The notes under the pieces were generated by a model. It saw nothing but the letters and a program-made list of their open reading frames with translations. It was not told where the DNA came from and ran no database searches. This document shows, in pieces, positions 5,258 to 36,932 of a stretch of 37,485 nucleotides of DNA; the first letter of the stretch is position 1, and every line of letters begins with the position of its first letter. Source of the stretch: Deltaproteobacteria bacterium (GTDB taxonomy: Bacteria > Myxococcota_A > Polyangia > JAAYKL01); assembly GCA_030591725.1 (NCBI GenBank), contig JAUVAN010000005.1, positions 1-37,485 of the forward strand. The letters run 5' to 3'. The translations under genes were made by a program, and so were the position numbers.

Positions 5258-5640
5258 CCGCAAGGCTGCTGATAGTCGACGACTCGCGGGCTATGAGAGC
5301 ATACGTACGCGGTTCCCTGCGCGGTTTCGTGGACTGCGAAATCGACGAAGCATCCTCCGGCTTCGAGGCCCTGAGACTCCTTCCGCGCAAGGACTATAAG
5401 TTGGTGATAACCGATATCAATATGCCCGACATCAACGGGCTGGAGCTAGTCAAATTCGTGCGTGCTTCCGAACGACATCGAGACGTTCCCATAATCATTA
5501 TTTCCACCCATTCGTCTAAGCAAGATCAGAAGAAGGCTCTCGAACTCGGCGCCAGCGTCTTTCTTCCAAAGCCCTTCACACCGCCGGACATCATCGACGT
5601 CGTGGCGCGCCTCATCGAAGAGAAGGGCGGCGAGTCATGA
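5254..5640 (+). CDS. cheY: CheY-like single-domain response regulator
   Basis: A 128-residue receiver domain alone. The acidic pair is D9/D10 (LLIVDDS), the phosphoacceptor is D54 in VITDINMPDINGLE, the switch Ser/Thr is near S84 (IIIIST), and the conserved Lys is K106 (FLPKPF). Length and motifs match CheY. The start is GTG, overlapping the upstream frame's TGA as GTGA. The stop overlaps the cheA start as ATGA, so this is the first recognised signalling gene of the operon. It should accept phosphate from the CheA encoded next. With no output domain, it acts by binding a partner, which need not be a flagellar switch since no flagellar gene is present. Confidence 0.9.
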   Translation: MTARLLIVDDSRAMRAYVRGSLRGFVDCEIDEASSGFEALRLLPRKDYKLVITDINMPDINGLELVKFVRASERHRDVPIIIISTHSSKQDQKKALELGASVFLPKPFTPPDIIDVVARLIEEKGGES

Positions 5641-7820: not shown

Positions 7821-7823
7821 AGC

Positions 7824-8339: not shown

Positions 8340-8842
8340 AGCCCGATACGTTTGCCAGGCTGCGCGAGTCAGCACACAGGGACAAGGATCGCAAGGCGGT
8401 GGAGTTCCACGTGGAAGAGATACGGTGCTGTGTGGACATCATGCGGGTGCGCGAGATAGTCAGTCCGGGAAAGACGGTGCCCATTCCGTCCGCTCCGCAC
8501 TGGGTGATTGGCGCCACGGATCACCGGGAGTCGGTTGTTCCGGTGACGGATCTTCGCTTGCGCCTGGGCCTGGAACCTTTCGAGTCACCCAGCGCCAGAT
8601 GGATCATCGTGGACGCGGGCGGGATGGACATGGCCTTGCTGGTGGACGCGGTCCATGGCGTGGTTACGGTTTCCGTCGACATTGAGAGGGAGCGGCACCC
8701 GGTGATGGACAACACCGATGTCACATGGGTCAGTTCGGTCTACAGTACGCCAGACGGGCTGATCTTCGAATTGGACCTGGACGCCATGTTCGATACCCGG
8801 AGAGATCGCGAAGACCGACCGGAAAACGGAAAGACCACTTGA
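8336..8842 (+). CDS. cheW: CheW-like coupling protein (second copy, divergent)
   Basis: 168 residues, starting in an ATGA overlap with the first cheW. It has CheW-type segments: VEFHVEEIRCCVDIMRVREIV, HWVIGATDHRESVVPVTDLRLRLGL, WIIVDAGGMDMALLVDAVHGVV. The usual RG of the 'NLRG' turn is replaced by TDHRES, and the strand sequence is unlike the first copy, so this is not a recent duplicate. Its C-terminal ~40 residues are acidic and basic mixed. Its stop overlaps the TTG start proposed for the HEAT-repeat gene, so the two are probably made together, and a CheW2-HEAT interaction is a reasonable inference. Confidence 0.85.
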   Translation: MKPDTFARLRESAHRDKDRKAVEFHVEEIRCCVDIMRVREIVSPGKTVPIPSAPHWVIGATDHRESVVPVTDLRLRLGLEPFESPSARWIIVDAGGMDMALLVDAVHGVVTVSVDIERERHPVMDNTDVTWVSSVYSTPDGLIFELDLDAMFDTRRDREDRPENGKTT

Positions 8843-10833: not shown

Positions 10834-10836
10834 AAC

Positions 10837-11700
10837 GTGCGCCTGGGCGATCCAGTAATACCCCTTTCGCTGGAGCGGTTCCGCCTGTTGCGGGATCTGA
10901 TCAACAGGCGATTCGGGATCTTCTTCTCCGATGACGACCGGTACCTGGTCGAGAGCAGGTTGTCGGAGCGGCTGATCCACCTGGATCTGCTGTCTTTTGA
11001 CGACTACTACCACTACCTTCAGTATCACCAGGACGGAGAGCATGAACTGGAGCGCGGCGCCGAGATCCTCACCACCAACGAGACCTATTTTTTTCGCGAG
11101 GAATATCAGCTGAAGGCGTTCTCACAGGAGATCCTGCCGGAGTTGCACGAAAGGTTGATCAACAAGCGTCGCATGATGATCTGGTCGGCGGGTTGTTCCT
11201 CCGGGGAGGAGGCCTACACCATTGCCATGCTCGTGCGCGACTCGGGCCTGTTCCATGGTTGGGACGTACGGATCTTCGGCAGCGACATCAGCGCCAGAAT
11301 GCTCGCCAAGGCCCGCCGCGGCATATTCGGAACCTCTGCCTTCCGCGCCACGTCGGAGGATCTTCAGCGCAGACACTTCAACCCGGCGCAGGGCAGCCTC
11401 CAGGTAAACGAAGACATCCGGGTTCTGTGCCACTTCGGCCGGTTGAACCTGCTCGACGAGGAAAAGATCATCTTCGTTGGTCGGGCCGACGTGGTGCTGT
11501 GCCGCAACGTGCTCATCTACTTTGACAAACGCTCCAAGAGCCGCGCCCTTTCGATCATATACGACCGCCTGAACGATGATGGATATCTGCTCCTGGGCCA
11601 CACCGAATCACTCCTCAACCTTTCAACGGCGTTCGAACTCGTTCACCTTCGAAACGATCTGGTATATCGACGGCCAAAGGCGGGTAGCGATGGTTTCTAG
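10837..11700 (+). CDS. cheR: chemotaxis protein methyltransferase CheR
   Basis: 287 residues from GTG 10837. The N-terminal helical domain (FRLLRDLINRRFGIFF...RLSERL) is followed by NETYFFRE, the family hallmark near residue 88. The SAM-binding WSAGCSSGEEAYTIAML lies near 115, and VLCRNVLIYFDKRSKSR near 220. The length equals a bare CheR without TPR extension. It methylates glutamates of receptor signalling domains using SAM. Its presence implies that methyl-accepting receptors exist elsewhere in the genome, since none is encoded here. The end overlaps cheB by 11 bases, matching the usual CheR/CheB pairing. Confidence 0.93.
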   Translation: MRLGDPVIPLSLERFRLLRDLINRRFGIFFSDDDRYLVESRLSERLIHLDLLSFDDYYHYLQYHQDGEHELERGAEILTTNETYFFREEYQLKAFSQEILPELHERLINKRRMMIWSAGCSSGEEAYTIAMLVRDSGLFHGWDVRIFGSDISARMLAKARRGIFGTSAFRATSEDLQRRHFNPAQGSLQVNEDIRVLCHFGRLNLLDEEKIIFVGRADVVLCRNVLIYFDKRSKSRALSIIYDRLNDDGYLLLGHTESLLNLSTAFELVHLRNDLVYRRPKAGSDGF

Positions 11701-12796
11701 CCGCATTCTGAAGGTGCTGATAATCGACGACTCGGCGTACAACCGCCGGGTCATCGCGGACTTCGTCGAGGAGATCCCCGAGGCAATTGTCGTCGGCAAG
11801 GCCAGTGACGGTCAGGAAGGGCTGCAGATGGCCCTTAACGAACACCCGGACGTCATCACCCTCGACCTGGAGATGCCCAGAATGGACGGCTTCTCCTTTC
11901 TGAGGCTGATAATGTCGAACCAGCCGACGCCGGTAATTGTGATCAGCTCCCATTCCGACAAGGAGAACGTATTTCGAGCGTTGGAGCTCGGCGCGCTCGA
12001 CTTCGTGGCCAAACCGAGCCATCGCGCGACGCCGGAGATCCTCGAACTGAAGGACGAGGTGATCAACAAGATCCGCATGGCGGGGCAACTCAAGCCAACC
12101 TCCTTGCATCGGTTGAATTCCTATGCTCCGGCCGATCTCTCCGCCAGCGGCGCATTTCCGGTGATCGACATCGACAACGCCGAAACCTTCGACCCCGGCA
12201 TGGAGCCTCACGCGAAAAAGGTGGTCGTCATGGCGGCGTCCACCGGGGGACCGCCCTGCATCATGCAGATCCTGAGTTCGCTCCCGGCAGACCTGCCGGT
12301 CTCGATACTTGTCGCCCAGCACATGCCACCCAAGTTCACCACAACCTTTTCCGAGCGCCTCGATCGACAGTGCGCCATGAGAGTAATGGAGCTGACCCTG
12401 GTTGAAATGGCCCGCAAGGGAGTGATCTATATCTGCCCGGGTGACAAGAATCTGGAGCTGACACCCGGTTTATCCGGCACCATTATCACGGCCGTCCAGC
12501 CAAAATCGACGGACCGTTACGTGCCCTCCGCCGACTACCTCTTCAGAAGCGCGGCGAGCGCACTTCGAAAAAACGTGATGGCTGTGGTGCTGACCGGCAT
12601 GGGAGACGACGGGGCGAACGGGTCGGTCGCGGTGGCCTCGGTCGGCGGTCCAGTTCTCGTAGAATCCGTTGACACTGCGGTGGTGGACGGCATGCCGCAA
12701 GCTGTGCTTCGGACCGGAACACCCGCGATGGAGGAACCGCTCGAGCGCATCGCCCAGAAGATTGTACAATTTGCACATTCACCGGATGGAGATTAG
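11690..12796 (+). CDS. cheB: chemotaxis response regulator protein-glutamate methylesterase CheB
   Basis: 368 residues from ATG 11690. The frame is open further upstream, but that part lies inside cheR. The receiver domain has D13/D14 and phosphoacceptor D59 (ITLDLEMPRMDG). The linker is followed by a methylesterase domain with catalytic S184 (AASTGGPP), H211 (VAQHMPP) and D306 (GMGDDG). All three look intact. It should demethylate or deamidate receptors when phosphorylated by CheA. It is the last soluble Che protein before the PEGA lipoprotein, which follows after 25 bases with its own strong ribosome-binding site. Confidence 0.95.
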   Translation: MVSSRILKVLIIDDSAYNRRVIADFVEEIPEAIVVGKASDGQEGLQMALNEHPDVITLDLEMPRMDGFSFLRLIMSNQPTPVIVISSHSDKENVFRALELGALDFVAKPSHRATPEILELKDEVINKIRMAGQLKPTSLHRLNSYAPADLSASGAFPVIDIDNAETFDPGMEPHAKKVVVMAASTGGPPCIMQILSSLPADLPVSILVAQHMPPKFTTTFSERLDRQCAMRVMELTLVEMARKGVIYICPGDKNLELTPGLSGTIITAVQPKSTDRYVPSADYLFRSAASALRKNVMAVVLTGMGDDGANGSVAVASVGGPVLVESVDTAVVDGMPQAVLRTGTPAMEEPLERIAQKIVQFAHSPDGD

Positions 12797-22340: not shown

Positions 22341-24974
22341 TCAAGCGCTTGTGGTTTTCTCGAAGGTCAGTTTCTCTCCGTCCCCTTCGATGACAAGTCG
22401 ATCTCCCCGAGTGACGTCATTGGAGAGCACCATCTTTGCGACCGGGCCCTCGATCAGCCGCTGGATGGTGCGCCGCATGGGACGGGCGCCGAGCTCCGGG
22501 TCGAAGCCGCCGGCCGCGATCAGCGTGTCGACGACGCCTTCCCCGACCTCCAGGGACACTCCCTTTTCGGTCTCCAGCTGTTTTGAGAGTCCGTTCAGCA
22601 TGAGCATGGCGATCTCGCCGACCTCGGGCCTGGTCAACGGCGCGAAAACCAGGGGCTCGTCGATCCGGTTCCACAACTCCGGCGCAAGCGCTTCCCGGGC
22701 GGCGCCGAGAATGGACTCACAGATCCTGTCCCCGTCGGGCTCGGGCTCGTCTTCACCGGCGCTGAAGCCCACCCGCCGCCTGGGGGCCGAGAGGTTCCTC
22801 ATATCGGAACCGAGGTTGCTCGTCATGACGATGACTGTGTTTTCAAAAACGATGGTGCGTCCCTTGCCGTCGGTCAGACGACCGTAGTCGAGGACCTGGA
22901 GCAGGACCTGCAACACATCCCGGTGGGCTTTCTCGATCTCGTCGAGAAGGATCAGACAGTAGGGGCGCTTTCTTACCGCCTCTGTGAACTGCCCACCGTC
23001 CTCGTGCCCCACGTACCCGGGCGGCGCCCCGATCATTCGGGCCACGGCGTGAGCTTCTGAAAACTCGGTCATGTCCAGGCGTATCATGGAGTCGCTGTCC
23101 GTGAAGAGCAGGTCCGCGAGTGCTTTTGCGGTTTCGGTCTTGCCCACACCGGTCGGTCCGAGGAAGAGCAGCGACCCAATGGGGCGCCCCGATCTGAAAC
23201 CGGCGGCGTTGCGGCGCAGCGTCTCTCCGAGCGCATCGAGAACATGGCGATGGCCGATGATACGTTCGGCCAGATCCGATTCCAGGTTGAGCAGACGATC
23301 ATGGTCGCTTGTACTCAGACGCTTTGCCGGAACGCCGATCTGCTCGGCCAGAACATCGGCGATATCCTCGTCGGACACCAGACCGGCATGGGATCTGCGA
23401 ACCCTGGCTCCCGCCAGATCCAGCAACGCGAGCGCCTTGTCCGGCAGCGCGCGGTCGTGCACGTATCTGGACGACAGTTTTACTGCCGCCGTGAGCGCCT
23501 CCGGGGTGTATGAGAGCTGATGGTGTTCGGCGTAGGACGGCGCCGCACCTTCGATTATCCGCACTGCCTCGTCGTGGTCCGGCTCGTCGATCTCGATGAC
23601 CGTGAAGCGCCGGGCGAGGGCTGGATCCGATTCCACATGGTGGGAGTACTCTTCGCTGGTGGTGGCCGCGATACAGGGCATCTCTCCGCGACCGAGGGAC
23701 ACCTTGAGATCCTGGACGGCCTCAGCGCCATCCGAGGAAGCCAGGAGTGCGTGTATCTCATCAAAGAACAGGACCACCCGCCCGTTGGAGCGAATGACTT
23801 CCTCCCGCAGGGCATCAAACCGCTCGGACAGGGCGCCCCTCAGAGATGTTCCCGAAAGCAGGTCTCCTGACCTGACCTCCAGCAGGATGCGGTCCTCGAG
23901 TCCGGGGGCCTCTCCTTTCACGAGCTTGCAGGCAAGACCCTCGACGATCGCAGTCTTTCCGACCCCGGGGGCTCCCACCAGACAGGGGCTGTTGGCCCGC
24001 CGCTTGTTTAGCACGTCGGCGATCCGTTCCATCTCGCGTTCGCGGCCGATGATCTCCTCGACATGGCCCCTTGCGGCGTCGGCCGTGATGTTTCGCCCGA
24101 TGGCGGCCAGGGTTGGAAATTCGGATGGAGACAGATCGAATCGCGAGAGCGGATCGGAGCCGAAAAGAACCGGTTCAGGGGTGATCGGGACTGCCCGGTG
24201 TCTGGGCTGCACCTCAGGTGGAGCGCTTTCAACGGGAGCCACCGAAGCCTGGTTGCCATTTTTGGATTCGGATCTCAGGGCTCTCGTTTTCTGCTGGGCC
24301 TGCTCGAGGGAGCTTCCCATATTTGAAGGAGGACGCCGCTGCGAGAGGCCCGGGAGTTCCGGTTGCCCGCAAGCGGGTTTCCCTTGTCGGCGATTCTGCG
24401 CGACGGGCTCGGATTGCAACGGAGAAGTTTTCAGTTGATCCGGAAGGGGAAGGGACTCGCGATTGAAGTCTCCTCCCGGACGCGCAACGGTGTCGTTGCC
24501 GACGGGGGACCCGTGTTCCCGGGTCAGGCTGGTGGTCATGTTGCGAAGCGCCTGATTTCTTATCACATCAACATTCAGCCCCCCCTCCAGGAGGATCAGA
24601 TGTCCCTCGCAGCGCCGGACTGTCGCAATTGCGGCGAGCACATGGATCGCGGAAGGTGTGTTGACTCCCAGAGAATCCGCATACTTGTTCGCCTTTTCAA
24701 TTACTTCATCAACGATTTCGGATGGTTCCGGCTCTGAATTGCGAATTGCGTTGCGGAGTTTGGTCTCTGTCAGGCCTCTCAGAGTGAGGGTCCTCGCAGC
24801 CGCGCCGGTGCCGGTGAGGATGGCCAGCAGGAGGTAACCGGTACTCATCTCCCCGTTTCCATTGCGGGCAAAATCGGCGGCCCGATTCAGCACTTCCTGG
24901 ATTGTTCCGGATGTCGCGATGCTCATATTCTTCAATAAATCCAAACTCTTACGAACTTCCAAGGAGTATGCCAT
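22341..24974 (-). CDS. ClpA/ClpC-like double AAA+ ATPase
   Basis: 877 residues from ATG 24974 (a TTG lies six bases upstream). A Clp N domain (~1-145, two related helical repeats) precedes a ~130-residue Pro/Gln/Ser-rich linker. D1 has Walker A GAPGVGKTAIVEG (~333), Walker B FFDEIHAL and an Arg finger in ALARRF. No coiled-coil M domain lies between D1 and D2, unlike ClpB. D2 has Walker A GPTGVGKTETAKAL (~603) and Walker B ILLDEIEKAH. A VGF motif (RRRVGFSAG) sits where ClpA/ClpC carry the IGF/IGL ClpP-binding loop, suggesting ClpP coupling, though the Val is atypical. No clpP or clpS is nearby. It is a protein unfoldase; substrates are unknown. Confidence 0.9.
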   Translation of the reverse strand: MAYSLEVRKSLDLLKNMSIATSGTIQEVLNRAADFARNGNGEMSTGYLLLAILTGTGAAARTLTLRGLTETKLRNAIRNSEPEPSEIVDEVIEKANKYADSLGVNTPSAIHVLAAIATVRRCEGHLILLEGGLNVDVIRNQALRNMTTSLTREHGSPVGNDTVARPGGDFNRESLPLPDQLKTSPLQSEPVAQNRRQGKPACGQPELPGLSQRRPPSNMGSSLEQAQQKTRALRSESKNGNQASVAPVESAPPEVQPRHRAVPITPEPVLFGSDPLSRFDLSPSEFPTLAAIGRNITADAARGHVEEIIGREREMERIADVLNKRRANSPCLVGAPGVGKTAIVEGLACKLVKGEAPGLEDRILLEVRSGDLLSGTSLRGALSERFDALREEVIRSNGRVVLFFDEIHALLASSDGAEAVQDLKVSLGRGEMPCIAATTSEEYSHHVESDPALARRFTVIEIDEPDHDEAVRIIEGAAPSYAEHHQLSYTPEALTAAVKLSSRYVHDRALPDKALALLDLAGARVRRSHAGLVSDEDIADVLAEQIGVPAKRLSTSDHDRLLNLESDLAERIIGHRHVLDALGETLRRNAAGFRSGRPIGSLLFLGPTGVGKTETAKALADLLFTDSDSMIRLDMTEFSEAHAVARMIGAPPGYVGHEDGGQFTEAVRKRPYCLILLDEIEKAHRDVLQVLLQVLDYGRLTDGKGRTIVFENTVIVMTSNLGSDMRNLSAPRRRVGFSAGEDEPEPDGDRICESILGAAREALAPELWNRIDEPLVFAPLTRPEVGEIAMLMLNGLSKQLETEKGVSLEVGEGVVDTLIAAGGFDPELGARPMRRTIQRLIEGPVAKMVLSNDVTRGDRLVIEGDGEKLTFEKTTSA

Positions 24975-25125
24975 AACCAATTGTACCGGGCAAATTTTTG
25001 GTCTTTTTTTTGCCGGAGCGAGCCGATCCGGCCTCCGCCTTGGTCTATTATTAATATTGAACTAAACTGAGAATATGCTGGGGATGTGTGCGTCAAAAAC
25101 AAATGAGTATCAAAGGAGAATCCAC

Positions 25126-25859: not shown

Positions 25860-26930
25860 ATGAATACCAAAAGAGATTATTACGAAATTCTAGGCGTACC
25901 GCTCGACGCCGACTCAAAGCAGATCAAGCAGGCGTACAGGCGTCTGGCAATGAAGTTACACCCGGACAGGAACCCGGACAATTCTGAAGCAGAGGACCTC
26001 TTCAAGGAGGCCGCCGAGGCCTACGATGTCCTTTCCAACCCGGAAAAGCGGGAAATCTACGATCGTTTTGGACATGAAGGGCTGCAGGGGCAGGCCGGAT
26101 TCACCGGGGTCGACGATATTTTCTCGCATTTCGGTGATATCTTCTCCGATTTTTTCGGAGGCGACATTTTTGGAGGACGTCGCACATCCCGCCCGCCGAG
26201 ACCGCCGAGGGGGGCTGATCTTCGTTACGATCTGTCCCTGAGCTTTGAAGATGCCTTCAGGGGCATCAAGAAGAAGATCGATCTGGTTCAGCTGCGAAGT
26301 TGCGGCCGCTGCGAAGGAAAAGGATCGGAACCAGGAACCACTCCCGAGACCTGCAGCACCTGCCACGGTCACGGACAGGTGATCCAGCGCACGGGGTTCA
26401 TGACCATCGCCACTCCCTGCCCCTCCTGTCTGGGCCGAGGCATCATAATCACCACACCCTGCGAAGAATGCGAGGGTACCGGACGAGCGGCGTACGACCG
26501 CACCGTTACCGTCACTGTGCCCCCGGGGGTGGACACGGGCATGAGGTTGCGGCTCGCCGGAGAGGGGGAGCACCCCGATGACCCGGGTGATCCTGGAGAT
26601 CTCTATGTGTTCATCGATGTGGAACCCCATCAACTGTTGGTGCGAAACGGAAATGATCTCGAGTACACGGTTTCCATTCCATATACCCGGGCGATCCTGG
26701 GCTTCTCCATCGAGGTGGAGATCATCGACGAGACGGTGGAGGTTGAACTGCCTCCGGGGACCCAACCCGGGGACAGGATCCGCGTCAGCGGTAAGGGTGT
26801 CCCGTTCGTGGGCGGAAAAGGGCGCGGTGAACTGATCGTGAACGTGAAGGTCGTGCTTCCAATTGAAATAGGCGAAGAGGAGCGCACCCTTCTCGACAAG
26901 CTGGATCATCTGACAAACGGCGGCAGGTAA
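25860..26930 (+). CDS. dnaJ: chaperone DnaJ
   Basis: 356 residues. The J domain holds HPD at residues 34-36 (KLHPDRN). A Gly/Phe-rich region (~75-120, [16 protein letters not shown]) follows, then four zinc-finger CXXCXGXG motifs: [32 protein letters not shown]. The C-terminal substrate-binding domains ([25 protein letters not shown]) follow. The order is that of a full class I DnaJ. It stimulates DnaK ATPase and delivers substrates. No dnaK or grpE lies in the window, so it is an orphan copy by position. Confidence 0.93.
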
Positions 26931-26940
26931 CCGCACGGCA

Positions 26941-27200
26941 CTCTGATATGGTCTGCATGGACTCGTGAAAGCCCTGCACGATACTCTGATGTGGTCTGCA
27001 TAGACTCGTGAAAGCCCAGTACGTCAGTGGAGTAAGCCATGCACAGCACACCCAATCAGTCCGCATAGTACTTTGATATGGCCTACATGCACTGGAGTAA
27101 ACCCTGCGCAGTGGTCGAGAAAGCTCTGCAAGGCAGCGGAGTAGGGTCTGCATGCACCGGAGTGAGGCATGCGCGGTGGTATTACGTGGTCTGCGTGCCC
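26941..27200. repeat. eroded direct-repeat array, ~43-nt period
   Basis: Copies of a unit like CTGATATGGTCTGCATGGAC are visible at about 26943, 26986, 27073 and 27143, with a degraded copy near 27045 and another trace near 27186. Spacing is about 43 bases (87 between the second and the copy two periods on). Other shared parts are ACTCGTGAAAGCCC and GGAGTAAGCC. Divergence between copies makes it old. It begins eleven bases after the dnaJ stop and shows no open frame that looks like a gene. Confidence 0.6.
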
Positions 27201-27289
27201 AAGGGCCAACAAGAGTCCCAGTCCAAGGGCCAACAAGAGTCCCAAGGGCCAACAAGAGTCCCAGTCCAAGGGCCAACAAGAGTCCCAGT
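27199..27289. repeat. 24-bp tandem repeat, four copies
   Basis: The unit CCAAGGGCCAACAAGAGTCCCAGT occurs at 27199-27222, 27223-27240 (truncated), 27242-27265 and 27266-27289. The units are nearly identical, so the array is young. The final unit runs directly into the left inverted repeat of the transposase element, which shares CAAGAGTCCCAGT. Confidence 0.85.
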
Positions 27290-27304
27290 CTTTAGATCCC
27301 TCTG
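27277..27304. repeat. left terminal inverted repeat of transposase element
   Basis: The first 18 bases, CAAGAGTCCCAGTCTTTA, are the exact reverse complement of 28534-28551. The next block, TCCCTCTG, also matches (28525-28532), with GA in place of a T between the two blocks. It starts inside the last unit of the 24-bp tandem array. Confidence 0.8.
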
Positions 27305-27511
27305 TTCGCAAACGGGCTCAGATGGCCCCTGACTCGAGAAAATCGACTTCTCTTAGACGCGAATCTCTGCGTTTTCGAAGAGGGGTGTGCCGGAAGCACT
27401 GCAGTTGCGGTCATTGGAGAGAAAAGATGGTTTTTCAGGCGCAGCGGTCCATCTCGAGGGAGGTTCTCGCGGAAAGAGTCGGTAATCTGGTGAGCCGTCA
27501 GGCCCGCGAGG

Positions 27512-28441
27512 TCAGCACAATTGCAGCAGCGGCGGTCTGAAGGAGCCCGAAGGAAACTCCACGTCTCGTACCCCTTTCAACCACATTCCGGATGCATACC
27601 AGAAACGGTCCAGAAATGACCGCCAACTTTCCCTGTACTCGTTTGCCGCTTCAACACTGGAAGCGTGACACAAGGGCTGGCGGGTTCGCGGCTTCCTCGT
27701 TTTGGGGCGGTCCCGATGGTCAACCTTAGCCAGCTTCGTCGGCCCCATTTCTCTTCGGCCGTCCCGCTCTCGCTCGACTCGACAACTCTGCTCTATCTCG
27801 CGAACCCGCCGTCGAAAAAGCGCCTGACGCTTGTGCGTTGGTAGATGCTCCCACGATGGAATCGGAGATAATTCGACCGTCACGGTTTTCGTGAACGCCT
27901 CCCGCGATTTGCGACTCCTGTCTCCTCCTGCCCGGTGCCACGCTGTGCGGTCCAGATATGTAAAGGTCTCGACTCGCCCCGTCGCCAACTGCTCGTATGA
28001 CGAGAATCCCTTCCAGTGGGACACGCGGTCCACGAGTCCGTCCTTGACGGGATTGGTCACCGCGTACAGAAGTTGCTGCTCCAGGCTGAAGTCATCGATG
28101 GCTTCGTCCGTACGATTTCTGGTGGAGAAGAGGGGACCCTCCCGTTCGAGATACCGGTTGATCTCGCGAGCGACCAGCGAGTTGAAGAGTTGGTCAAACC
28201 TGACGAGGTTTTCCAGATGCTCCGTGCTGCCGGAAATTGGGGCCATGCCGTCTTGCTTGTGATTTATATTGAAGTCGAGCCAGTAGAGTTTGACCGGATA
28301 CTTCTTCTGGGCCCGCCCCGCGCAAGCGCCGATGATGTTTCTTACGGTTGCGTCGGGTTTGAAGAAGAACTGTCGATCAACTGTGCGTTGTGTTTCGCAG
28401 TACACAGCATCGGGTTTGAGCCATCTTGGTCGTTTTGCCAT
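27512..28441 (-). CDS. Y1 (IS200-like) transposase-family protein with altered HUH motif
   Basis: 309 residues from ATG 28441, behind AAAGGAGG. The N-terminus (MAKRPRWLKPDAVYCETQRTV), the start of a strand-HUH segment (YWLDFNINHKQDG) and the tyrosine helix YAVTNPVKDGLVDRVSHW with Y126 match the IS200-like Y1 transposase/RAYT-like family. In relatives the NH is followed by a hydrophobic residue and a second His; here it reads H61-K62-Q63, so the second metal-binding His is missing. The C-terminal ~120 residues are basic and probably disordered. It may be inactive or divergent. It lies inside the inverted-repeat-bounded element. Confidence 0.7.
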   Translation of the reverse strand: MAKRPRWLKPDAVYCETQRTVDRQFFFKPDATVRNIIGACAGRAQKKYPVKLYWLDFNINHKQDGMAPISGSTEHLENLVRFDQLFNSLVAREINRYLEREGPLFSTRNRTDEAIDDFSLEQQLLYAVTNPVKDGLVDRVSHWKGFSSYEQLATGRVETFTYLDRTAWHRAGGDRSRKSREAFTKTVTVELSPIPSWEHLPTHKRQALFRRRVREIEQSCRVERERDGRREMGPTKLAKVDHRDRPKTRKPRTRQPLCHASSVEAANEYRESWRSFLDRFWYASGMWLKGVRDVEFPSGSFRPPLLQLC

Positions 28442-28524
28442 GGGGCCTCCTTTACCCCTGTAATCGGTCGTTTGCGCCGGGAGTTGCCGAAAATCGTCCA
28501 AAACGGGTGAAAATGAGGCAAAAT

Positions 28525-28551
28525 CAGAGGGAATAAAGACTGGGACTCTTG
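28525..28551. repeat. right terminal inverted repeat of transposase element
   Basis: The bases 28534-28551 read TAAAGACTGGGACTCTTG, the exact reverse complement of 27277-27294. CAGAGGGA (28525-28532) extends the match to the left copy. Its outer end merges into the 14-bp tandem repeat. Confidence 0.8.
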
Positions 28552-28572
28552 TGAGCGGACTCTTGTGAGCGG
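28545..28572. repeat. 14-bp tandem duplication at element's right edge
   Basis: ACTCTTGTGAGCGG occurs twice without a gap, at 28545-28558 and 28559-28572. Its core, read on the other strand, is ACAAGAGT, the same core amplified in the 24-bp units at the left edge. Confidence 0.8.
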
Positions 28573-28757
28573 GCTACGGGGACGACAGCATCTTCGCGTT
28601 CGGTTGCAAGGATTACTACTTTGACGGTGATCAGTGGTGGGATATGACCGACTACCTTTACGAACAAGGCATGCACCTGGGTGGTGAAATCTGGGGAACC
28701 AGCCTTCAGAACAACTATGTTGTGGGAGGGTTCGTTTATCGTCTCAGTTGCCAATAA
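28572..28757 (+). pseudogene. C-terminal remnant of beta-propeller-like protein (copy 1)
   Basis: An open frame without a start codon begins right at the element's right-hand repeats and ends TAA at 28755-28757. It reads ...DDSIFAFGCKDYYFDGDQW...GGEIWGTSLQNNYVVGGFVYRLSCQ. The pattern of IFAFG, a YFDG turn and IWGTS resembles the repeated blades of Myxococcota beta-propeller lipoproteins (VWGxSxxDVFAVG). The 5' part is missing, apparently lost with the mobile element's arrival. It matches copy 2 and shares its end (Y-x-x-SCQ-stop). Confidence 0.6.
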
Positions 28758-28780
28758 CTACCGCGAACCCTGCCGCCGAC

Positions 28781-28933
28781 AAAATCTTCGCCGTCGGCAC
28801 CAAGAGTTATTATTACAATGGGGCCGAATGGTTGGAGATAAAAGATATAGCCATTGGCAATGATGTCTGGGGCGCGAGCGCCGAGGAAACCTGGGTGGCT
28901 TCGGGTTTCATGTACAAGGTCAGTTGTCAGTAA
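28781..28933 (+). pseudogene. C-terminal remnant of beta-propeller-like protein (copy 2)
   Basis: In another frame, just after copy 1, the sequence reads KIFAVGTKSYYYNGAEWLEIKD...NDVWGASAEETWVASGFMYKVSCQ and stops at 28931-28933. It aligns along its length with copy 1: IFAVG with IFAFG, YYYNG with YYFDG, VWGAS with IWGTS, and Y-x-x-SCQ-stop. A TTG-started frame from 28748 is possible but has no site. The two are tandem 3' ends of paralogous genes. Confidence 0.6.
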
Positions 28934-28988
28934 ACGAATAATCCTCAAAACACCGAGTGTTCGACCTTGCGTAAGGCAGCCATGTGAC

Positions 28989-29006
28989 CGCCGGCTCTTG
29001 CCGGCG
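28989..29006. other. GC-rich hairpin downstream of remnants
   Basis: CGCCGG (28989-28994) and CCGGCG (29001-29006) form a perfect six-base stem around CTCTTG. No T run follows. It could be part of a factor-dependent terminator for the old genes, or chance. Confidence 0.3.
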
Positions 29007-29028
29007 AAATAGACCCCACCTCTTGACC

Positions 29029-29057
29029 TTGCGAGGTGCTTTTCTAATTAGTACAAT
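29029..29057 (+). promoter_or_regulatory. candidate promoter of the seven-gene signalling operon
   Basis: TTGCGA (29029-29034), a 17-base spacer and TACAAT (29052-29057; five of six to consensus). The first ATG of the operon is at 29107, with AAGGGCAAG upstream of it. The following genes are spaced by overlaps or up to 3 bases, so this may drive all seven. Confidence 0.55.
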
Positions 29058-29106: not shown

Positions 29107-30423
29107 ATGAAGTCATCAGTGTGTACTCACAAGACCGCAAACGAGAGCCTGCGATCGGGAGATTCCCTGCGTGCGCTTCGCATCGTGGGGCCTATGCTCG
29201 AGAACAACCCGTCCGATCTCACAGCCTGGAAGATCGGGGCGCTCGCGTTGATTGCGCGTGGCGACTTGAGACCGGGAGTAAAGAACCTGAAAAGCGTGGC
29301 CCTCGCGATGGCCGAGGAAAGAAATCCGATCCAGGCCATCGCCACGGCGAAGGAAATACAGGATCTGGGCCAGGATCCCGGAGACCTGATCTCCGCTATT
29401 GCGCAAATCTACGGATCGGAATCGGACAGAATCGAGGAGGTGGAGATCCCACCGCCACCGCTGCCCAGCAAACTGGATATGGAACCGTGGGGGGGCGACC
29501 TGGACGACGAACAAGTCGTCTCCAGGGCCGGGGACGCCATGGCCATGGCCTGGGGCGCCGCGCTCACACTCCCGGATCGGGGCATCCGGTTGCCCTACAT
29601 ACCCCTCTTATCCGCCCTTGGCACTTCGGATTTCGAGCACCTCACAAACGCGCTCGTCCGTCAGGTGGTCGAGGAGCAGGAGATCATCGTCGAGCAGGGC
29701 ACAACCGGAGACGCCATGTACATAGTGGCACAAGGATCGGTTGTGGTGATGCATCATCCCGCAAGCGGCGACCCGGTAGAGCTGGCTCGCCTGGGTCCCG
29801 GGGCGTTTTTCGGAGAGATGGCTCTGGTCTCCTCCACCACGCGGGCGGCGACGGTGCGCGCGAGCGAGCGAACTGTCCTTTTACGAGCGGACAAGACCGA
29901 GATGGAGCATCTGACCGAACGCTTTGCGAAAACCGGGGACGTACTGGTAGCGTTTTGCCACGCCCGGATGCTCGAAAACCTCATGCGCGTATCTCCGGTG
30001 CTCAAGCCGGTTCCCCCCAAGCGCAGGCCGGATGTGATCTCCAAATTCAACACGGATTACAGGAGCGAGGGCGAGGTGATCATCAAACAGGACAGCGACG
30101 GTCCCGGGCTGTTCCTGATCGTATCCGGAGGAGTCCGGGTGAGCAAGATCGAAGATAATGAAGACGTGGTTCTCGCCAACCTGGGCCCCGGAGATCTCTT
30201 CGGCGAGATCTCACTGCTCATGAGGAAACCTTCCACGGCGACGGTGACGGCAGATCAAAACACGGCGTTGTTGTTCTTGCCACGAACTGAGTTCGAATCA
30301 GCCACTGCAGAGTTCCCCGAATTTCTAAAGGGTGTGTACGACATCGCCGTGAACAGGGATATGCGCAACAATTCAATAATGGGACTCCCGGCGCAGGACG
30401 CGGACGGTCTCATACTTGTGTAA
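29107..30423 (+). CDS. tandem cyclic-nucleotide-binding (CRP-like) domain protein
   Basis: 438 residues without a DNA-binding domain. Residues ~10-110 are helical and TPR-like (LRSGDSLRALRIVGPMLENNPSDL). Two cNMP-binding domains follow: ~168-265 with the phosphate-binding cassette GAFFGEMALVSSTTRAATV (R246), and ~300-410 with GDLFGEISLLMRKPSTATV, where the expected Arg is S376. The first site looks competent for cAMP/cGMP binding; the second lacks the key Arg. It is the first gene of the operon and probably a cytosolic sensor of a second messenger for the proteins that follow. No cyclase is nearby. The output mode is unknown. Confidence 0.88.
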   Translation: MKSSVCTHKTANESLRSGDSLRALRIVGPMLENNPSDLTAWKIGALALIARGDLRPGVKNLKSVALAMAEERNPIQAIATAKEIQDLGQDPGDLISAIAQIYGSESDRIEEVEIPPPPLPSKLDMEPWGGDLDDEQVVSRAGDAMAMAWGAALTLPDRGIRLPYIPLLSALGTSDFEHLTNALVRQVVEEQEIIVEQGTTGDAMYIVAQGSVVVMHHPASGDPVELARLGPGAFFGEMALVSSTTRAATVRASERTVLLRADKTEMEHLTERFAKTGDVLVAFCHARMLENLMRVSPVLKPVPPKRRPDVISKFNTDYRSEGEVIIKQDSDGPGLFLIVSGGVRVSKIEDNEDVVLANLGPGDLFGEISLLMRKPSTATVTADQNTALLFLPRTEFESATAEFPEFLKGVYDIAVNRDMRNNSIMGLPAQDADGLILV

Positions 30424-30426
30424 GCC

Positions 30427-31062
30427 ATGAAGAATATTAATCAGGGACCACCATTGATATTATCTTTGTTGCTCGCGCTCGCGGGCGTGGGCGGGCTCGC
30501 CACGGCGATTGTGCTGGTGCCTTCCATGGTGCGGCAGTTTGCCGCCGCCCGAAACACGGCCCCCTCACCGGTTGTCCACAAAACGGTGAAGATCGCGGAT
30601 TCCTTCCCCGAGCCGGTCGAGACGGTCAACGCCGTACAGACAAAAGAGGTCGAGGAGAAGGTCGAGGAGAAAGTCGAAGAGAAGGTCGAGGAGAAAGCCG
30701 AAGAGAAAGTCGAGGAGAAAGTCGAAGAGAAAGTCGAGGAGGAGAATCCCGCGGCTGCTTCGGTAACTCAATGGACCATCGAACTCGATCCGGGAAACTA
30801 CGAGATTATAAAAGGGGGTGAAGCAGCGGTAGATGCGATCGGGCACTTCCTCACGACGAACGAGGACGCCAGGGTAAAGCTCACGGGAGTCAATCACCTC
30901 AGCAAGAGCTCAAAACGCTCGAAGCAGGCGGCCCGGATCATCAAGGAGAAGATCATCAGGGATGTGGGAATCGCGAGACAACGGGTCTCCATTGCGGGAA
31001 CGCAGGACCCCGAGGTGACGGGCCTCCTGGTGCGCGCCAAGATCCTGGGGGGGGGGCGATGA
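30427..31062 (+). CDS. membrane-anchored protein with VEEK repeat and OmpA-like C-terminal domain
   Basis: 211 residues. An N-terminal membrane segment (LILSLLLALAGVGGLATAIVLV) is followed by a spacer and about eight VEEK tetrapeptides (nt 30646-30744, 12-base period), which would form a rigid charged helix. The C-terminus (ARVKLTGVNHLSKSSKRSKQAARII...RQRVSIAGTQ) has the pattern of a divergent OmpA/MotB-like peptidoglycan-binding domain, though some key residues are not obvious. It follows the cNMP gene by 3 bases and overlaps the next by 4. It is likely an envelope-spanning spacer. Confidence 0.7.
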   Translation: MKNINQGPPLILSLLLALAGVGGLATAIVLVPSMVRQFAAARNTAPSPVVHKTVKIADSFPEPVETVNAVQTKEVEEKVEEKVEEKVEEKAEEKVEEKVEEKVEEENPAAASVTQWTIELDPGNYEIIKGGEAAVDAIGHFLTTNEDARVKLTGVNHLSKSSKRSKQAARIIKEKIIRDVGIARQRVSIAGTQDPEVTGLLVRAKILGGGR

Positions 31063-31772
31063 CATTTCTATTCGTAATGATGATACTGGCCGTTTTTCTC
31101 GGCGGGGTTCTCCTGTGGCTATCGGGATTGACCGTCGGCCTCCGCTCCAGCTCCGAGTTGCCGGACAACAAGTTGCCGGACAACAAGGAACTCGTGAAGC
31201 TTCGAGGGGACAGGGACAAGCTTGCGGTCGAGGCTGCTCGGGTCGTCGAGGAAATGGAGCGTGTAGAAAACGAGCTGACCATGGCCGCAGAAGAGATGAA
31301 GCGCCTCAGGGACGAGAACGAGGCGTTGAAATCCAATGGCGCCCCCAAAAAGACCGGATCGTCACCCCCCAAGCCGCCGCCGTTACCACCCAAGCCGCCG
31401 CCATTACCCGCCGTGGCCTCCACATCGGAAATACCCGACAGCGAGGAACTCGACTCGGCGCAGGCCCAGCTGGACCTCGAAAAGGTGGCCCATCGAAGAA
31501 CCCTGGACGAACTCGCGGCGATCAAGAACCTTCTCGAAATGAAGATAGCCGAGGACCTTGACCCGGCAGGGGGCACTGGACCGCAACGTGATCGATACAG
31601 CGCTGGTTTCAAGACCATGTCCATTGACAACAGGAGCCAATCCGTATCCGGCACAGATCACGATCGCTTGCGGCAGTCGTTCGATCAGACTGTTCGCGAG
31701 AAGGATCGCCTCGAAACGGAACTGGCCCGTACACAACAGGAATTACAACTCCTGAAGATGCGACAAAAATGA
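31059..31772 (+). CDS. coiled-coil membrane protein, function unknown
   Basis: 237 residues. One N-terminal membrane segment (FLFVMMILAVFLGGVLLWLSGLTVGL) is followed by a long coiled coil (~50-92, KELVKLRGDRDKLAVEAARV). A proline-rich hinge (PPKPPPLPPKPPPLP, ~103-118) and further coiled coil (DSAQAQLDLEKVAHRRTLDELAAIKNLL; then RQSFDQTVREKDRLETELARTQQ) follow. Two small in-frame duplications are visible: LPDNK twice (31157-31187) and PPKPPPLP twice. Start and stop overlap neighbours as ATGA. The architecture suggests a bitopic scaffold for the operon's complex; no family is recognised. Confidence 0.7.
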   Translation: MTFLFVMMILAVFLGGVLLWLSGLTVGLRSSSELPDNKLPDNKELVKLRGDRDKLAVEAARVVEEMERVENELTMAAEEMKRLRDENEALKSNGAPKKTGSSPPKPPPLPPKPPPLPAVASTSEIPDSEELDSAQAQLDLEKVAHRRTLDELAAIKNLLEMKIAEDLDPAGGTGPQRDRYSAGFKTMSIDNRSQSVSGTDHDRLRQSFDQTVREKDRLETELARTQQELQLLKMRQK

Positions 31773-32065
31773 GCATACGAGCATACGAAAGAAGTGACCT
31801 GCCAATCGAGAAGAAGTTGCCCTCACTGGGAAAACGATTTCCATGCCTGGCAGGAGCCCGTGGTCTCGATCCGTGGGATTCCACTGAATTTCACGCGTGG
31901 GTGTCCCAACAGGAAAATGGGGGGAGCGCTTACCACGCCGGTCACCTGTTGCTGAACCTGTCCGGTGACGGCCCCTGGGAACCGTTCGACATCCTGGCGG
32001 CCAGACAGGTGTGGGCGCCGGACGACAGGCAGATCTTCATCAATTGGATAAAGGTATGGCAGTAA
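31769..32065 (+). CDS. 98-residue orphan protein
   Basis: 98 residues, starting in an ATGA overlap with the coiled-coil gene and ending just before the acyltransferase ATG (TAA-ATG). It has no signal peptide or membrane segment. Visible features are a basic N-terminus, a Trp-containing middle (DPWDSTEFHAWVSQQ) and a C-terminal pattern GPWEPFDILAARQVWAPDDRQIFINWIKVW. I do not recognise it. Its preservation in such a tight operon indicates a real gene. It could be a small adaptor for the acyltransferase or a kinase. Confidence 0.55.
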   Translation: MSIRAYERSDLPIEKKLPSLGKRFPCLAGARGLDPWDSTEFHAWVSQQENGGSAYHAGHLLLNLSGDGPWEPFDILAARQVWAPDDRQIFINWIKVWQ

Positions 32066-32962
32066 ATGCCCCTGCCGCCCCTGAAGAACCCCTCCAGACC
32101 ACTCACCATTATTCGCGGTATTGCACTGGGGGTGCCGGCGGCGCTGTTTCTCCTGGTGACGCTGTTGACCGTCAACTGCATCCAGGTGATGTTTCTGATC
32201 ATCGCGCCATTTTCCAGGAGAACCTATCTGCGCTTGAACAGATGGGCCGCAAATTGGTGGTTTGGGTTGTGCGTAAAAGTGGGCCGGGTAGTACACGGGG
32301 TCAAATTGGAACTGACCGGCGATCCTGTTCGAACCGGGGAAAATGCGGTGCTGGTGGTGAACCATCAGGAGATGACCGACATTGCATTTCTCTTCATGGT
32401 CGCGCTGGAAGGAGAACGACTGGGCGATCTGAAGTGGTTTGTGAAGGACGCGATCAAATATGTTCCGGGAGTCGGCTGGGGCCTATTTCTGCTGGACAAT
32501 CTGTTCGTGAAACGCCGCTGGGCTGCTGACAAGGATTCGATCGAGGCTGTCTTCGCGCGACTGAAACGCAACGAGATCCCGTTCTGGCTGGTTCTCTTCG
32601 CTGAGGGGACCAGGGTAACCGAAGAAAAACTGGTTCGCAGTCGACGGATCGCTTCGAAGAAAAACATGAAGCCTCTGTCGCACCTGCTTATGCCCCACAC
32701 AAAGGGATTTGTCGCATCCCTGCAAGGGTTGGGAGATCGACTCGACGCGGTATACGACATCACCATCGCATACGAGAAGGGTGTGCCCACCCTGGGCCAG
32801 TACATCGTTGGCTTTGTGGAGAGGGCTCACATTCACGTGAAGCGATTCGACGCGAAAGAGCTTCCTGCCGGAAATCAGGCTCTCTCCTTGTGGTTGAACC
32901 AACGCTTCGAGGACAAGGATGCCCTGCTGGACGAGTTCTTCTCACGGGGCGCGTTTCAATGA
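32066..32962 (+). CDS. 1-acyl-sn-glycerol-3-phosphate acyltransferase-like (PlsC family)
   Basis: 298 residues. The acyltransferase motif I is NHQEMTD (N99-H100...D105), the variant NHX4D, and motif III is FAEGTR (E180-R183). N-terminal hydrophobic segments (LGVPAALFLLVTLLTVNCI) anchor it to the inner membrane. Family members transfer acyl chains to lysophosphatidic acid, or to other lipids in divergent branches. Its place between signalling genes is unusual: membrane-lipid tailoring might be the output or a support role. The ATG directly follows a TAA; the end overlaps the histidine kinase. Confidence 0.85.
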   Translation: MPLPPLKNPSRPLTIIRGIALGVPAALFLLVTLLTVNCIQVMFLIIAPFSRRTYLRLNRWAANWWFGLCVKVGRVVHGVKLELTGDPVRTGENAVLVVNHQEMTDIAFLFMVALEGERLGDLKWFVKDAIKYVPGVGWGLFLLDNLFVKRRWAADKDSIEAVFARLKRNEIPFWLVLFAEGTRVTEEKLVRSRRIASKKNMKPLSHLLMPHTKGFVASLQGLGDRLDAVYDITIAYEKGVPTLGQYIVGFVERAHIHVKRFDAKELPAGNQALSLWLNQRFEDKDALLDEFFSRGAFQ

Positions 32963-35130
32963 ATCTATTCGTCTTGCTGCCACTGTTATCGTTCGTCGCG
33001 CTCATATTCGTATGGTCATTCGTCTTCGGGCAGCGGCGAAAAGATCCTGTCAACAACGCCTACCTGATCTTCACCGGTACAGGCGCGACATGGCTTGGCC
33101 TGGAGCTTTTACTGTACGTGCCAGGATTGTCGGGCTACGAGCACTTGCTGCTACACGCGGTCATCCCGTTCTGGATGATGACCGGATTCCTCTTTTTGAA
33201 CTTTACCTACAAGCTCATCGATCGAAGGCCGGACTTGATGTACTGGCTGATACTGGCCGGAACGATGGTGGGAATCGGAACCGACCTGTTCACCAACTGC
33301 ATACTGACAGGTCACACGAGCCACTACTGGGGCGTGGCAGACGGGAGGAACCCGATACCACATATCCTGGTGTGCATTCCCAACGTTGCAGGTGGAGCCC
33401 TGGGCCTCCTGTTGATCTTGCTGGATCACGGAAAGATCAACGATGGCGACAGGAAGGCCGCCTATCTGTCCATACTCCTTGGCGGTGCCACAACGCTCAC
33501 AGCCATGGTTTCCATGAACATCATCATACCCGACTTCTTCGAGGTCGACTATTTGCCCCGCTACGGATCCTCGGCCCTGGTGGTGTTCTCGCTCATCATC
33601 TACCGTGCAGTGATCAAGTATCGATTCATGACGATGACCGTGGATCAGGTGGCAGAAGAACTCTTCGAGGACATGCGGGACGGCGTAGTGCTCGTTGACG
33701 GGCAGGGGACGATCACCCGGACCAATAGCGCGATACAGAGCATGTTCGGCCTGGACCCTCATCATGTGGAGGGGATGAACCTGGACGAACTGATACCACG
33801 AGTCGATCCGGCCGACGACGACGGGGACGCTCGGTTGGAGGTTAACAGGGGCGGGGTTGTCAGGATCTATTCCGTCGCCAGGTCCAACGAGACTCAAGGG
33901 GAGCTGGCACACGGAAAGATTCTGATCGTCCGGGACGAGACCGAGGAGATCGAGGCTCAGGAGATCTTGAAAAGGGACAAGGACGAACTCGAGGTCATGG
34001 TGCTGCGCAGAACCGAGGAGTCCCTTCAGGCCCAGCGTATGGAGGCCATCGGATTGCTCACAGGCGGGGTTGCCCACGACTTCAACAACCTGCTCACTGC
34101 CGTCATGGGGTTCGCGACGGCCGCGAGGGACGATCTGGCCGAGTCGGACCCGATCCGCGAGGACATGGAGGAGGTGGTGCTGGCGACAAGACGCGCCCGG
34201 GATATCATCGGCCAGATGATCTCCATCAGCTCCACCACAGAGATCGAACCCAGACAGGTAGCCGTGCCCGGTCTTCTGGACGAGGTTCTCAACCTCCTGG
34301 AGGCTTCCACACCCGAATCCATCAAGATCCGGCGGGACTACGGCAGCGAAAAAATGCACGTGATGGCGGATATCACCGGACTTCACCAGGTGATCATGAA
34401 TATCGGCACCAACGCATTACACGCCATGGAGGAGTCGGGCGGAACCCTCAGCGTCGGCCTGACCCGCGTGGATTCGAATGTGTGCATAACCATGGCCGAC
34501 ACGGGTGAGGGGATCGCAAAAAACATAATCGATCAGATTTTCGTCCCGTTCTTCACCACCAGGCAGAGCAAGAAGGGATCCGGCCTCGGCCTTGCCATGG
34601 TCCTGAACATCATTCAAAAGCACCGGGGAACCATAGACGTCACCTCGGAGGAGGGGAAGGGCGCCACCTTCAAGATCTACCTTCCCTGGATCGACAAGAA
34701 CGATGGCGGATCCAGGACGGAAGACTTCTCTATTGCCGGAGGAAGCGAGCGAATTCTCCTGCTCGACGACAAGGAGCAGGTGCTCAGGGTGGAAAAGCGC
34801 ATGCTCGAACCTCTTGGCTACCGGGTGACGACCTTCTCCGAACCTCAACAGGCCATCGAGGCCATACGGAAAAATAAGGGCTCCTTCGATCTTGTGGTCA
34901 CGGATCTCTCAATGCCCGACATGTCCGGGATCGAGTTCGGCGAACAGGTTCTTCAAATGTGTCCCGATCTTCCGATCATCCTGGTCTCTGGAAACCTGCG
35001 GGAGGACGACAAGGCACGGGCTCTTGAGATTGGTTTCGGCGCAGCCCTGTCCAAGCCTCTGCCCAAGGCCGTACTGGCATCCAACATCCGTGCGCTCCTT
35101 CAAGAAAAAAAACGAGGGAGTAGACCATGA
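32959..35130 (+). CDS. 7TM-type hybrid histidine kinase (PAS, HisKA, HATPase, receiver)
   Basis: 723 residues from ATG 32959 (ATGA overlap with the acyltransferase). The N-terminus is a ~220-residue multi-membrane region resembling the 7TM histidine kinase sensor type. A PAS domain (~240-330, RDGVVLVDGQGTITRTN) follows, then HisKA with H373 ([16 protein letters not shown]). The ATPase has intact FVPFFTTRQ and GSGLGLAM motifs. A C-terminal receiver carries D649 (VVTDLSMPDMSG). It is an active-looking kinase able to phosphorylate itself and its own receiver. No separate response regulator is in the operon. Confidence 0.9.
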   Translation: MNLFVLLPLLSFVALIFVWSFVFGQRRKDPVNNAYLIFTGTGATWLGLELLLYVPGLSGYEHLLLHAVIPFWMMTGFLFLNFTYKLIDRRPDLMYWLILAGTMVGIGTDLFTNCILTGHTSHYWGVADGRNPIPHILVCIPNVAGGALGLLLILLDHGKINDGDRKAAYLSILLGGATTLTAMVSMNIIIPDFFEVDYLPRYGSSALVVFSLIIYRAVIKYRFMTMTVDQVAEELFEDMRDGVVLVDGQGTITRTNSAIQSMFGLDPHHVEGMNLDELIPRVDPADDDGDARLEVNRGGVVRIYSVARSNETQGELAHGKILIVRDETEEIEAQEILKRDKDELEVMVLRRTEESLQAQRMEAIGLLTGGVAHDFNNLLTAVMGFATAARDDLAESDPIREDMEEVVLATRRARDIIGQMISISSTTEIEPRQVAVPGLLDEVLNLLEASTPESIKIRRDYGSEKMHVMADITGLHQVIMNIGTNALHAMEESGGTLSVGLTRVDSNVCITMADTGEGIAKNIIDQIFVPFFTTRQSKKGSGLGLAMVLNIIQKHRGTIDVTSEEGKGATFKIYLPWIDKNDGGSRTEDFSIAGGSERILLLDDKEQVLRVEKRMLEPLGYRVTTFSEPQQAIEAIRKNKGSFDLVVTDLSMPDMSGIEFGEQVLQMCPDLPIILVSGNLREDDKARALEIGFGAALSKPLPKAVLASNIRALLQEKKRGSRP

Positions 35131-36932
35131 GGTTAATGGCGCTCATTCACTTCGCTGCCCTGGCGAGTTTTCTGTTCCTCTTTGCGACTCTCCACGCTCA
35201 GAGGGGAAGATCGGATCCCGCCGGCAGAAGCCTGCGGGTGTTTCTGGCAAACATGGCCACGTGGGTGCTTCTGGAGATCTTCCTCTATTTCCCAATGTCC
35301 GTGGGCCTGGAGGGTATTGTCTACCGGGCCATGGCCGTGTGCTGGATTCCGTCGTCCTTCTGGTTTCTTCGGTTCGTCTACCGCTTGCTCAAGATAAAAA
35401 CCGACTGGATCTACTTTCTCTTCGCGGGTATCTCCCTGGTCGGCGTACTTGTCTACGTCACGACGGATCTGGGATTGGCCGGGATAAAATACGGGGAGTG
35501 GGGAACCTCGGATATCTCCACCGAGCATTTCATTTTCTTTTCGGCGATTCCCCTGACGACCGGCATGATGGTAGTTGTGCTCTCCATTCGTCAATCCTAT
35601 TTGTCCAATGTAACCATCATCCGCAAATCCTTGAGAATAATCGCCTCGGGAGTGCTCCTCGTGTTGGCCACCTCGGCATCGCTCGAGATCATGATCTTTT
35701 TCACCGATGGAATCTGGAGCACTGTCAGGTTGAGCTCGTGCACGTCGCTTCTTCTTATTCCCTTTGTGATATACGCCGCAAAAAAATTCGACTTCCTGTC
35801 CGGCGGGATGGTGCGCGTGGCCGAGGAGATCTTCGAGGATATCCGTGACGGCATCGTTCTGGTGGATCGAAATAGTCTGATACAACGAGTCAACCCGGCC
35901 GCTCAATCCATGCTCGGCGTCACCGCGAATACGGCCGAGGGATCTGAGGTAGATGCGATCTTGCAAAACTGGAGTTCCCTCAAGGAAAAGAAAAACGGGG
36001 AGATGACCGTTCGCGACCGAACTCGGAGCGATAGATTCCTGTCCATATCCGTCTCGATCGTCACGTCTCATTCCGCTCACCGGGGCTGGATAGTTCTGAT
36101 ACGGGATTTGACGGAGCAAAAAAGCGCCCGCGAAGTGCTCCAGCGCTCATTCAAAGAGCTGGAAGCGGAGATCGAGAGCCGGACCGAAGAGATCAGGCGT
36201 ACCCGACGAATGGAAGCCATCGGAACCATGACCGGCGGCATCGCCCATGACTTCAATAACCTGCTCACTGCGATCATCGGGTTCACCTCGGCCGCCAGAG
36301 AGGACCTGCCCGTGGAGCACAAGATCCAGAGAGACCTCAACGAGGTCCTCACCGCCGCCAACAAGGCTCGGGACATCGTCGATCAAATGCTCGAGCTCGG
36401 AAGACACTCGGACCCCCAACGGGAGATGATCGAAATAGGCCCCTTCGTGGAGCGGGTGTTGACCCTCGTCGAGTCATTCCTGCCCGCCCCCATATCCCTG
36501 AAGCGGCAGCTTCTAAAGGACGAAGCCTTCGTTATGGGAGATCCAACCCAACTCCACCAGGCGATCATGAACCTGTGCACTAATGGCTATCAGTCGATGA
36601 AAGAGACCGGAGGGGAACTGGTCGTGTCCGTCAGGATCATCGGGCTTTCAACCGGGGCGGGCAGCTCCCGAAGACCCCTGGAGCCCGGACAATCCGTCCG
36701 CATCTCGGTAGCCGACACGGGACCCGGCATCGACCGTGATATGCTGGATCGCGTCTTCGAACCCACCGGGACTACCAATTCGGATAGCAGTGAAGTAGGC
36801 ATGGCCATGGCCATGCGTATAGCGCGGGAACACAACGGCACCATAATGATCGATAGCGAAAAGGGTCGGGGTTCCATCTTTTCCCTGTTGTTACCGATCG
36901 TCGCTGCTGACAAAGCCTCTAATCGCCGATGA
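35127..36932 (+). CDS. 7TM-type histidine kinase, paralogue with degenerate ATP lid, no receiver
   Basis: 601 residues. It is a tandem paralogue of the preceding kinase: the same multi-membrane N-terminus and the shared junction [17 protein letters not shown], then PAS and HisKA with H374 ([16 protein letters not shown]). The ATPase keeps the N box ([10 protein letters not shown]) and D box (VADTGPGID), but the F and lid regions are [19 protein letters not shown] instead of FxPFFTT...GxGLGL. It lacks the receiver. It may be a weak or dead kinase, a phosphatase, or a heterodimer partner. It starts in an ATGA overlap; its end overlaps the convergent yjbQ gene. Confidence 0.85.

Follow-up and report, generated by a model that had tools for sequence, protein, structure and literature searches.

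A seven-gene run that probably arose by joining a chaperone-linked membrane module, an acyltransferase gene and a sensor kinase pair in one genus of Myxococcota

In the window, which is the whole 37,485-nucleotide stretch analysed and an entire contig of a metagenome-assembled genome of 4.13 Mb and 86% completeness, seven genes, A to G, form a run that was probably produced when three older modules were joined head to tail in this genus alone, a reading to which we assign a probability of about 0.6. F and G would act as a heteromer and A to D as a membrane assembly; the operon would then be a case of an older membrane module, linked to chaperones, taking over a regulatory pair. Its feature of wider interest is this kinase pair, with active-site loss that is reciprocal in some relatives. 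The family sample consisted of 14 genomes, including three of the window genus (the window genome, G001 and G002); these three represent a single lineage of uncultured Myxococcota and the full A-G join counts as one observation (n=1). No described system with this composition was found in a limited literature search.

The seven open reading frames, all on the forward strand, were confirmed at the coordinates of the initial annotation, and its parts list was upheld by Pfam for A, E, F and G and by fold for B. A (29107..30423) has a TPR-like N-terminus followed by two cNMP-binding domains. B (30427..31062) contains one transmembrane helix, a linker of VEEK repeats and a C-terminal OmpA-fold domain, and C (31059..31772) is a bitopic protein with one N-terminal transmembrane helix followed by a coiled-coil, proline-rich tail. 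D (31769..32065) is an all-helical orphan of 98 residues and E (32066..32962) a YihG-like lysophosphatidic-acid acyltransferase. F (32959..35130), the first kinase of the pair, has a 7TM-PAS-HisKA-HATPase-REC architecture and G (35127..36932), the second one, a 7TM-PAS-HisKA-HATPase architecture. The start of F is the ATG at 32959, the GTG at 32890 being an upstream extension. As had been reported before, no response regulator with DNA-binding or enzymatic output was present within the seven genes.

The junctions measured +3 bases (A-B), -4 (B-C), -4 (C-D), 0 (D-E), -4 (E-F) and -4 (F-G), as previously counted, and all six were the same in G001 and G002. Between the species of the genus, each of the seven genes showed a dN/dS of 0.12-0.44, which indicates purifying selection. 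Upstream of A, a promoter-like site (TTGCGA-17-TACAAT, 29029..29057, forward strand) was kept in the three species of the genus; as one such site was found for 1.0 expected by chance, the match taken alone is at chance level. It was considered doubtful that the co-localisation is incidental, with A-D, E and F-G sharing a convenient promoter and being otherwise functionally unlinked: the join is confined to one lineage and the modules stand alone elsewhere, as this explanation would have it, but the 0 and -4 junctions at D-E and E-F have survived a synonymous divergence of about 0.2-0.5 within the genus.

The operon did not originally start at A; the ancestral first gene, a type I zinc-finger DnaJ (25860..26930, forward strand; Pfam DnaJ, DnaJ_CXXCXGXG and DnaJ_C), had been overlooked. 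In the gene neighbourhoods of G001 and G002, the order is DnaJ-A-B-C-D-E-F-G, and the gap between DnaJ and A is 104-128 bp in the sister species. In the window genome only, an insertion of about 2.08 kb (26937..29018) separates the two genes. When the window was compared with G002 by blastn, the match ended at 26936 (L018 6864) and restarted at 29019 (L018 6873), so that the flanks of the insertion sit 8 bases apart in G002. Inside the insertion lies a transposon-like element (27276..28552, reverse strand), in which a REP-associated tyrosine transposase-like gene (27512-28501; NCBIfam REP_Tyr_transpos, E 3e-7, under the family cut-off) is located between perfect 19-nt inverted repeats (27276-27294 and 28534-28552). 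Two sets of 43-nt direct repeats were also observed at 26933-27307, on the 5' border of both the insertion and this element. Since the promoter-like site is located 3' of the insertion and is conserved in the genus, transcription of A-G would still be possible. The window genome has two type I DnaJ genes, in line with the family rule of two copies per genome. A ClpB/Hsp100-like AAA+ gene (22341-24980, reverse strand) was noticed near DnaJ, in a position kept in G001 and G002.

DnaJ-A-B-C-D is a unit of the Myxococcota family to which the window belongs. Outside the genus, A-B-C-D are contiguous in five of the 11 other family members: the unit is preceded by DnaJ and followed by unrelated genes in G004, G012 and G013, lies at a contig end in G005 and is without the upstream DnaJ in G010. 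Partial forms were found in the other genomes, namely DnaJ-B-C in G008, DnaJ-A in G011, A alone in G003, and A followed by a zinc-ribbon gene in G006 and, with DnaJ in front, in G007 and G009; in G007, B-C and D are located elsewhere. In total, DnaJ is found immediately 5' of A in eight genomes (G001, G002, G004, G007, G009, G011, G012 and G013) and 5' of B-C in G008, and there is none beside A in G003, G006 and G010. The TFIIB-type zinc-ribbon genes 3' of A (L092 6282-6590 in G007, L093 3183-3500 in G009 and L091 7341-7691 in G006), of which the L092 copy gave a Pfam match, suggest that this small protein is an alternative partner of A where B-C are absent or elsewhere.

The neighbourhoods also give a lead as to the physiological context. 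An A relative in G157 adjoins genes that we take, by reading rather than by profile, to be hrcA-, grpE- and dnaK-like, and another in G207 is near a gene that we take on the same basis to be FKBP-like. Taken together with DnaJ, the ClpB-like gene and the tolerance role of Myxococcus xanthus CbpB, a protein with two cAMP-binding domains connected with temperature and osmotic tolerance by the title cited in PMC10313047, these neighbours may link A-B-C-D to proteostasis or envelope stress. No paper on cNMP and DnaJ in Myxococcota was found in the limited literature search.

The two cNMP domains of A lie in tandem (Pfam, 142.5 bits), and PKA regulatory subunits were among its best solved-structure matches. 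Site 1 is intact (FGEMALVSSTTRAATV), whereas site 2 is devoid of the phosphate-binding Arg (FGEISLLMRKPSTATV); A has the tandem domains of the PKA-regulatory-subunit type but not its Arg in both cassettes. A motif alignment revealed that the Arg of site 2 is missing in all orthologues and that the closer ones have a canonical site 1. Furthermore, in genus g4 (G005, G012 and G013), both cassettes of A have been lost and A-B-C-D is retained. A class III cyclase was found in 13 of the 14 family genomes, the window genome having one, and a phylum-wide search detected only two strong A relatives outside the family. Of the cyclic-nucleotide sensing proposed initially, one intact site remains: such sensing by A is possible in the window genus, to judge from its motifs, and cannot be the constant role of A-B-C-D. 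Because genus g4 keeps these four genes without either cassette, a scaffold would be a better common denominator for A than cNMP sensing.

B was a difficult case, its OmpA-like domain not being detected by Pfam; searches by Pfam and by sequence against the PDB gave chance hits alone, and its identity was solved by the fold, the AlphaFold model matching OprF/OmpA/Pal (Foldseek E 2e-6). In OmpA-like domains (PF00691), a conserved Asp and a conserved Arg bind diaminopimelate. At the corresponding positions of the OmpA motif, by alignment, the homologues of B carry Asn/His and Ala/Gly instead of Asp/Arg. The earlier idea of an envelope anchor is weakened by this loss, even though the OmpA fold itself stands. 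The number of VEEK repeats in the linker differs between species, and a segment of another gene region of the window genome (L171 5368-5463) is 80-84% identical to this repeat at the DNA level. The 10 genomes (of 14) that encode B are also those that encode C, and the two genes are adjacent every time, B thus being a degenerate OmpA-fold protein always paired with a coiled-coil protein.

D is a family-restricted helical orphan: of the 14 genomes in the family, 12 encode it (the window genome and 11 relatives), and the search that covered 25 genomes from outside the family detected it in 0 of them. AlphaFold predicts a confident five-helix fold (pLDDT 92.7), for which the fold search returned no PDB match and no viral match. 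A wider homology search detected weak relatives in G384 and G121, whose surroundings are unrelated and offer no clue to function; two of the three in G384 (L128 and L131, the other being L129) lie near a gene which, by reading only, we take to be CsrA-like.

E is a late and nearly genus-restricted addition to the run: apart from the window genus, a lone relative with 46% identity was found, in G009. The protein contains the Acyltransferase and Acyltransf_C domains of Pfam and the motifs NHQEMTD (HX4D) and FAEGTR, and scored 98.5 bits against the YihG-type LPAAT model NF058536, under the equivalog cut-off of 260. The catalytic motifs are consistent with the lipid-modifying output proposed by the initial annotation, which is thereby attached to E, a latecomer, and to no other gene.

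F-G is an older, separate two-gene kinase pair. F-like sensors are widespread in the family, and F-G-like pairs occur apart from A-D in G004, G005, G010, G012 and G013, with a divergent pair of this type in G009. G422, which belongs to another family, carries an F-G-like pair which likewise overlaps by 4 bases and shares the long/short architecture, with no A-D beside it. The Pfam domains are PAS-HisKA-HATPase-REC for F and PAS-HisKA-HATPase for G, and hydropathy gave seven transmembrane peaks for F and six for G. HisKA_7TM (PF16927) did not match F; among 19 relatives aligned over the sensor region it matched five (best 2e-12), and the second kinase of G422 reached 25.8 bits for a cut-off of 28.6. 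In the full-length tree of the family data, the second genes, including G, formed one clade (100/99.8) and the first genes, including F, another (94/93). Both were recovered when more distant kinases were added (91/97 for the second genes and 98/95 for the first), the second gene of G422 then falling outside the second-gene clade. G was unplaced in a tree of the sensor region only and placed by the full-length data.

The two members of the pair differ in their active sites. All catalytic motifs of F are intact; G retains the His, and the G2 box (SSEVGMA) and the F box (FEPTGTT) of its ATP lid are degenerate. A two-residue lid deletion with an altered G2 box was found in seven of eight second genes and in none of eight first genes, all of which contain the GxGxG lid. 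The carriers of the deletion are the second genes of G004, G005, G010 and G012 and those of the window genus, where the change is most extreme; the second kinases of G009 and G422 are without it. The HATPase_c scores did not overlap, being 77-94 bits for the eight first genes and 40-65 bits for seven second genes. Conversely, G004 and G010, which represent two genera, have first genes in which the phosphoacceptor His is replaced by Ala or Ser and the receiver is absent; HisKA was undetected in these two first genes only and was present in their second genes. A single event may account for the missing His in both G004 and G010. The first gene of G010 is located at a contig start and has in-frame stops in its upstream part.

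The degenerate boxes of G might be taken as those of a decaying gene heading for loss rather than of a functional partner. This is very improbable, as its dN/dS is 0.25-0.33 over about 600 codons, its reading frame is intact in three species and the second genes of four other genomes have similar lid changes. The initial annotation was right in recognising a kinase pair, of which G is a lid-damaged partner and not a second complete kinase. Histidine kinases are mostly regarded as homodimers. From their sequences, F and G probably act as one heteromeric kinase. The split of His and ATP functions between partners is visible at the sequence level in G004 and G010, whereas the F of the window has both; since F is complete in the window species, it may not need G, for which the most fitting description would then be a partner with a damaged lid, or a modulator. 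A tentative further reading, possible rather than probable, is that F-G relatives represent a naturally evolving heteromeric kinase at several stages, operon-fused in one genus to a cNMP/DnaJ assembly and an acyltransferase. The graded reciprocal active-site loss across relatives offers a natural series for testing the origin of obligate kinase heteromers.

The initial annotation had viewed the run as a single system, and within the genus this has some support: order and junctions are kept and a degree of functional coupling is likely. Outside the genus, the modules are separate. It had also proposed that genes scattered in relatives would make the operon incidental; E is almost always absent there and F-G lies on other contigs, but A-B-C-D stay together in the five genomes mentioned above. 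A single integrated membrane-state sensor, in which an envelope scaffold would receive both cNMP and kinase signals and lipid acylation would be the output, its parts having been lost or dispersed in other lineages, would agree with the constancy of order and junctions in three species and with the purifying selection on all genes. We judge it unlikely, because the modules are unlinked outside the genus with E nearly absent there, the A-B-C-D runs stop at D with unrelated genes next to them, and the F-G-like pair of another family has no adjoining A-D.

In the preferred reading, that of a join of older modules, the cellular function of the run can be outlined from its sequence as follows. F and G, two membrane sensors, would assemble as a heteromer; the ATP domain of F would phosphorylate its own His and also that of G, the phosphate would leave through the receiver of F or an unlinked regulator, and G would tune or gate F. 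With less certainty, A-B-C-D would form a membrane-attached assembly with links to the DnaJ/DnaK chaperones and to stress from heat or osmolarity, and A would chiefly be a scaffold, still able in the window genus to bind a single cyclic nucleotide (probably cAMP). There, the transcript of A-D would also carry the acyltransferase and the kinase pair, so that the A-D assembly would be produced along with the proteins for membrane sensing and for the acyl-chain remodelling of phospholipids.

Several known systems resemble parts of the run. CbpB of M. xanthus is, like A, a tandem-cNMP protein of the Myxococcota phylum; as far as its title tells, it differs from A, which has a TPR-like N-terminus and a degenerate site 2 and whose operon includes DnaJ and membrane proteins. 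The PilZ-DnaK chaperones of M. xanthus (PMC10313047) also associate a second-messenger-binding domain with the Hsp70 system in Myxococcota, but there the c-di-GMP-binding PilZ is fused to DnaK, whereas A is a cNMP protein encoded beside DnaJ. B has the same fold as the C-terminal domain of OmpA, OprF and Pal, its homologues being without the peptidoglycan-binding Asp and Arg. E shares with the YihG-type LPAAT (PMC7277886) the Acyltransferase and C-terminal domains and the HX4D and EGTR motifs; loss of YihG in E. coli alters acyl composition and flagellation (PMC7277886). For the kinases, CheA3/CheA4 of Rhodobacter sphaeroides (PMC3591291) similarly place catalysis and phosphoacceptor on partner proteins, a likeness that is strongest for the G004 and G010 pairs. 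CheA3 and CheA4 are soluble, CheA-type proteins with whole domains missing; in contrast, F and G are full-length, multi-transmembrane PAS kinases with motif-level loss, and the F of the window is complete. The window itself carries a chemosensory-type cluster (5254-12796) with a receiver, CheA, two CheW, a 702-residue HEAT-repeat protein, CheR and CheB, and with no chemoreceptor among the genes scanned. The pseudokinases of the ChrS/HrrS and DivL cases (PMC9491836) likewise pair a kinase whose ATP site does not work with an active paralogue; the ChrS case came from laboratory evolution, whereas the asymmetry of F-G is natural, old and located in an overlapping gene pair.
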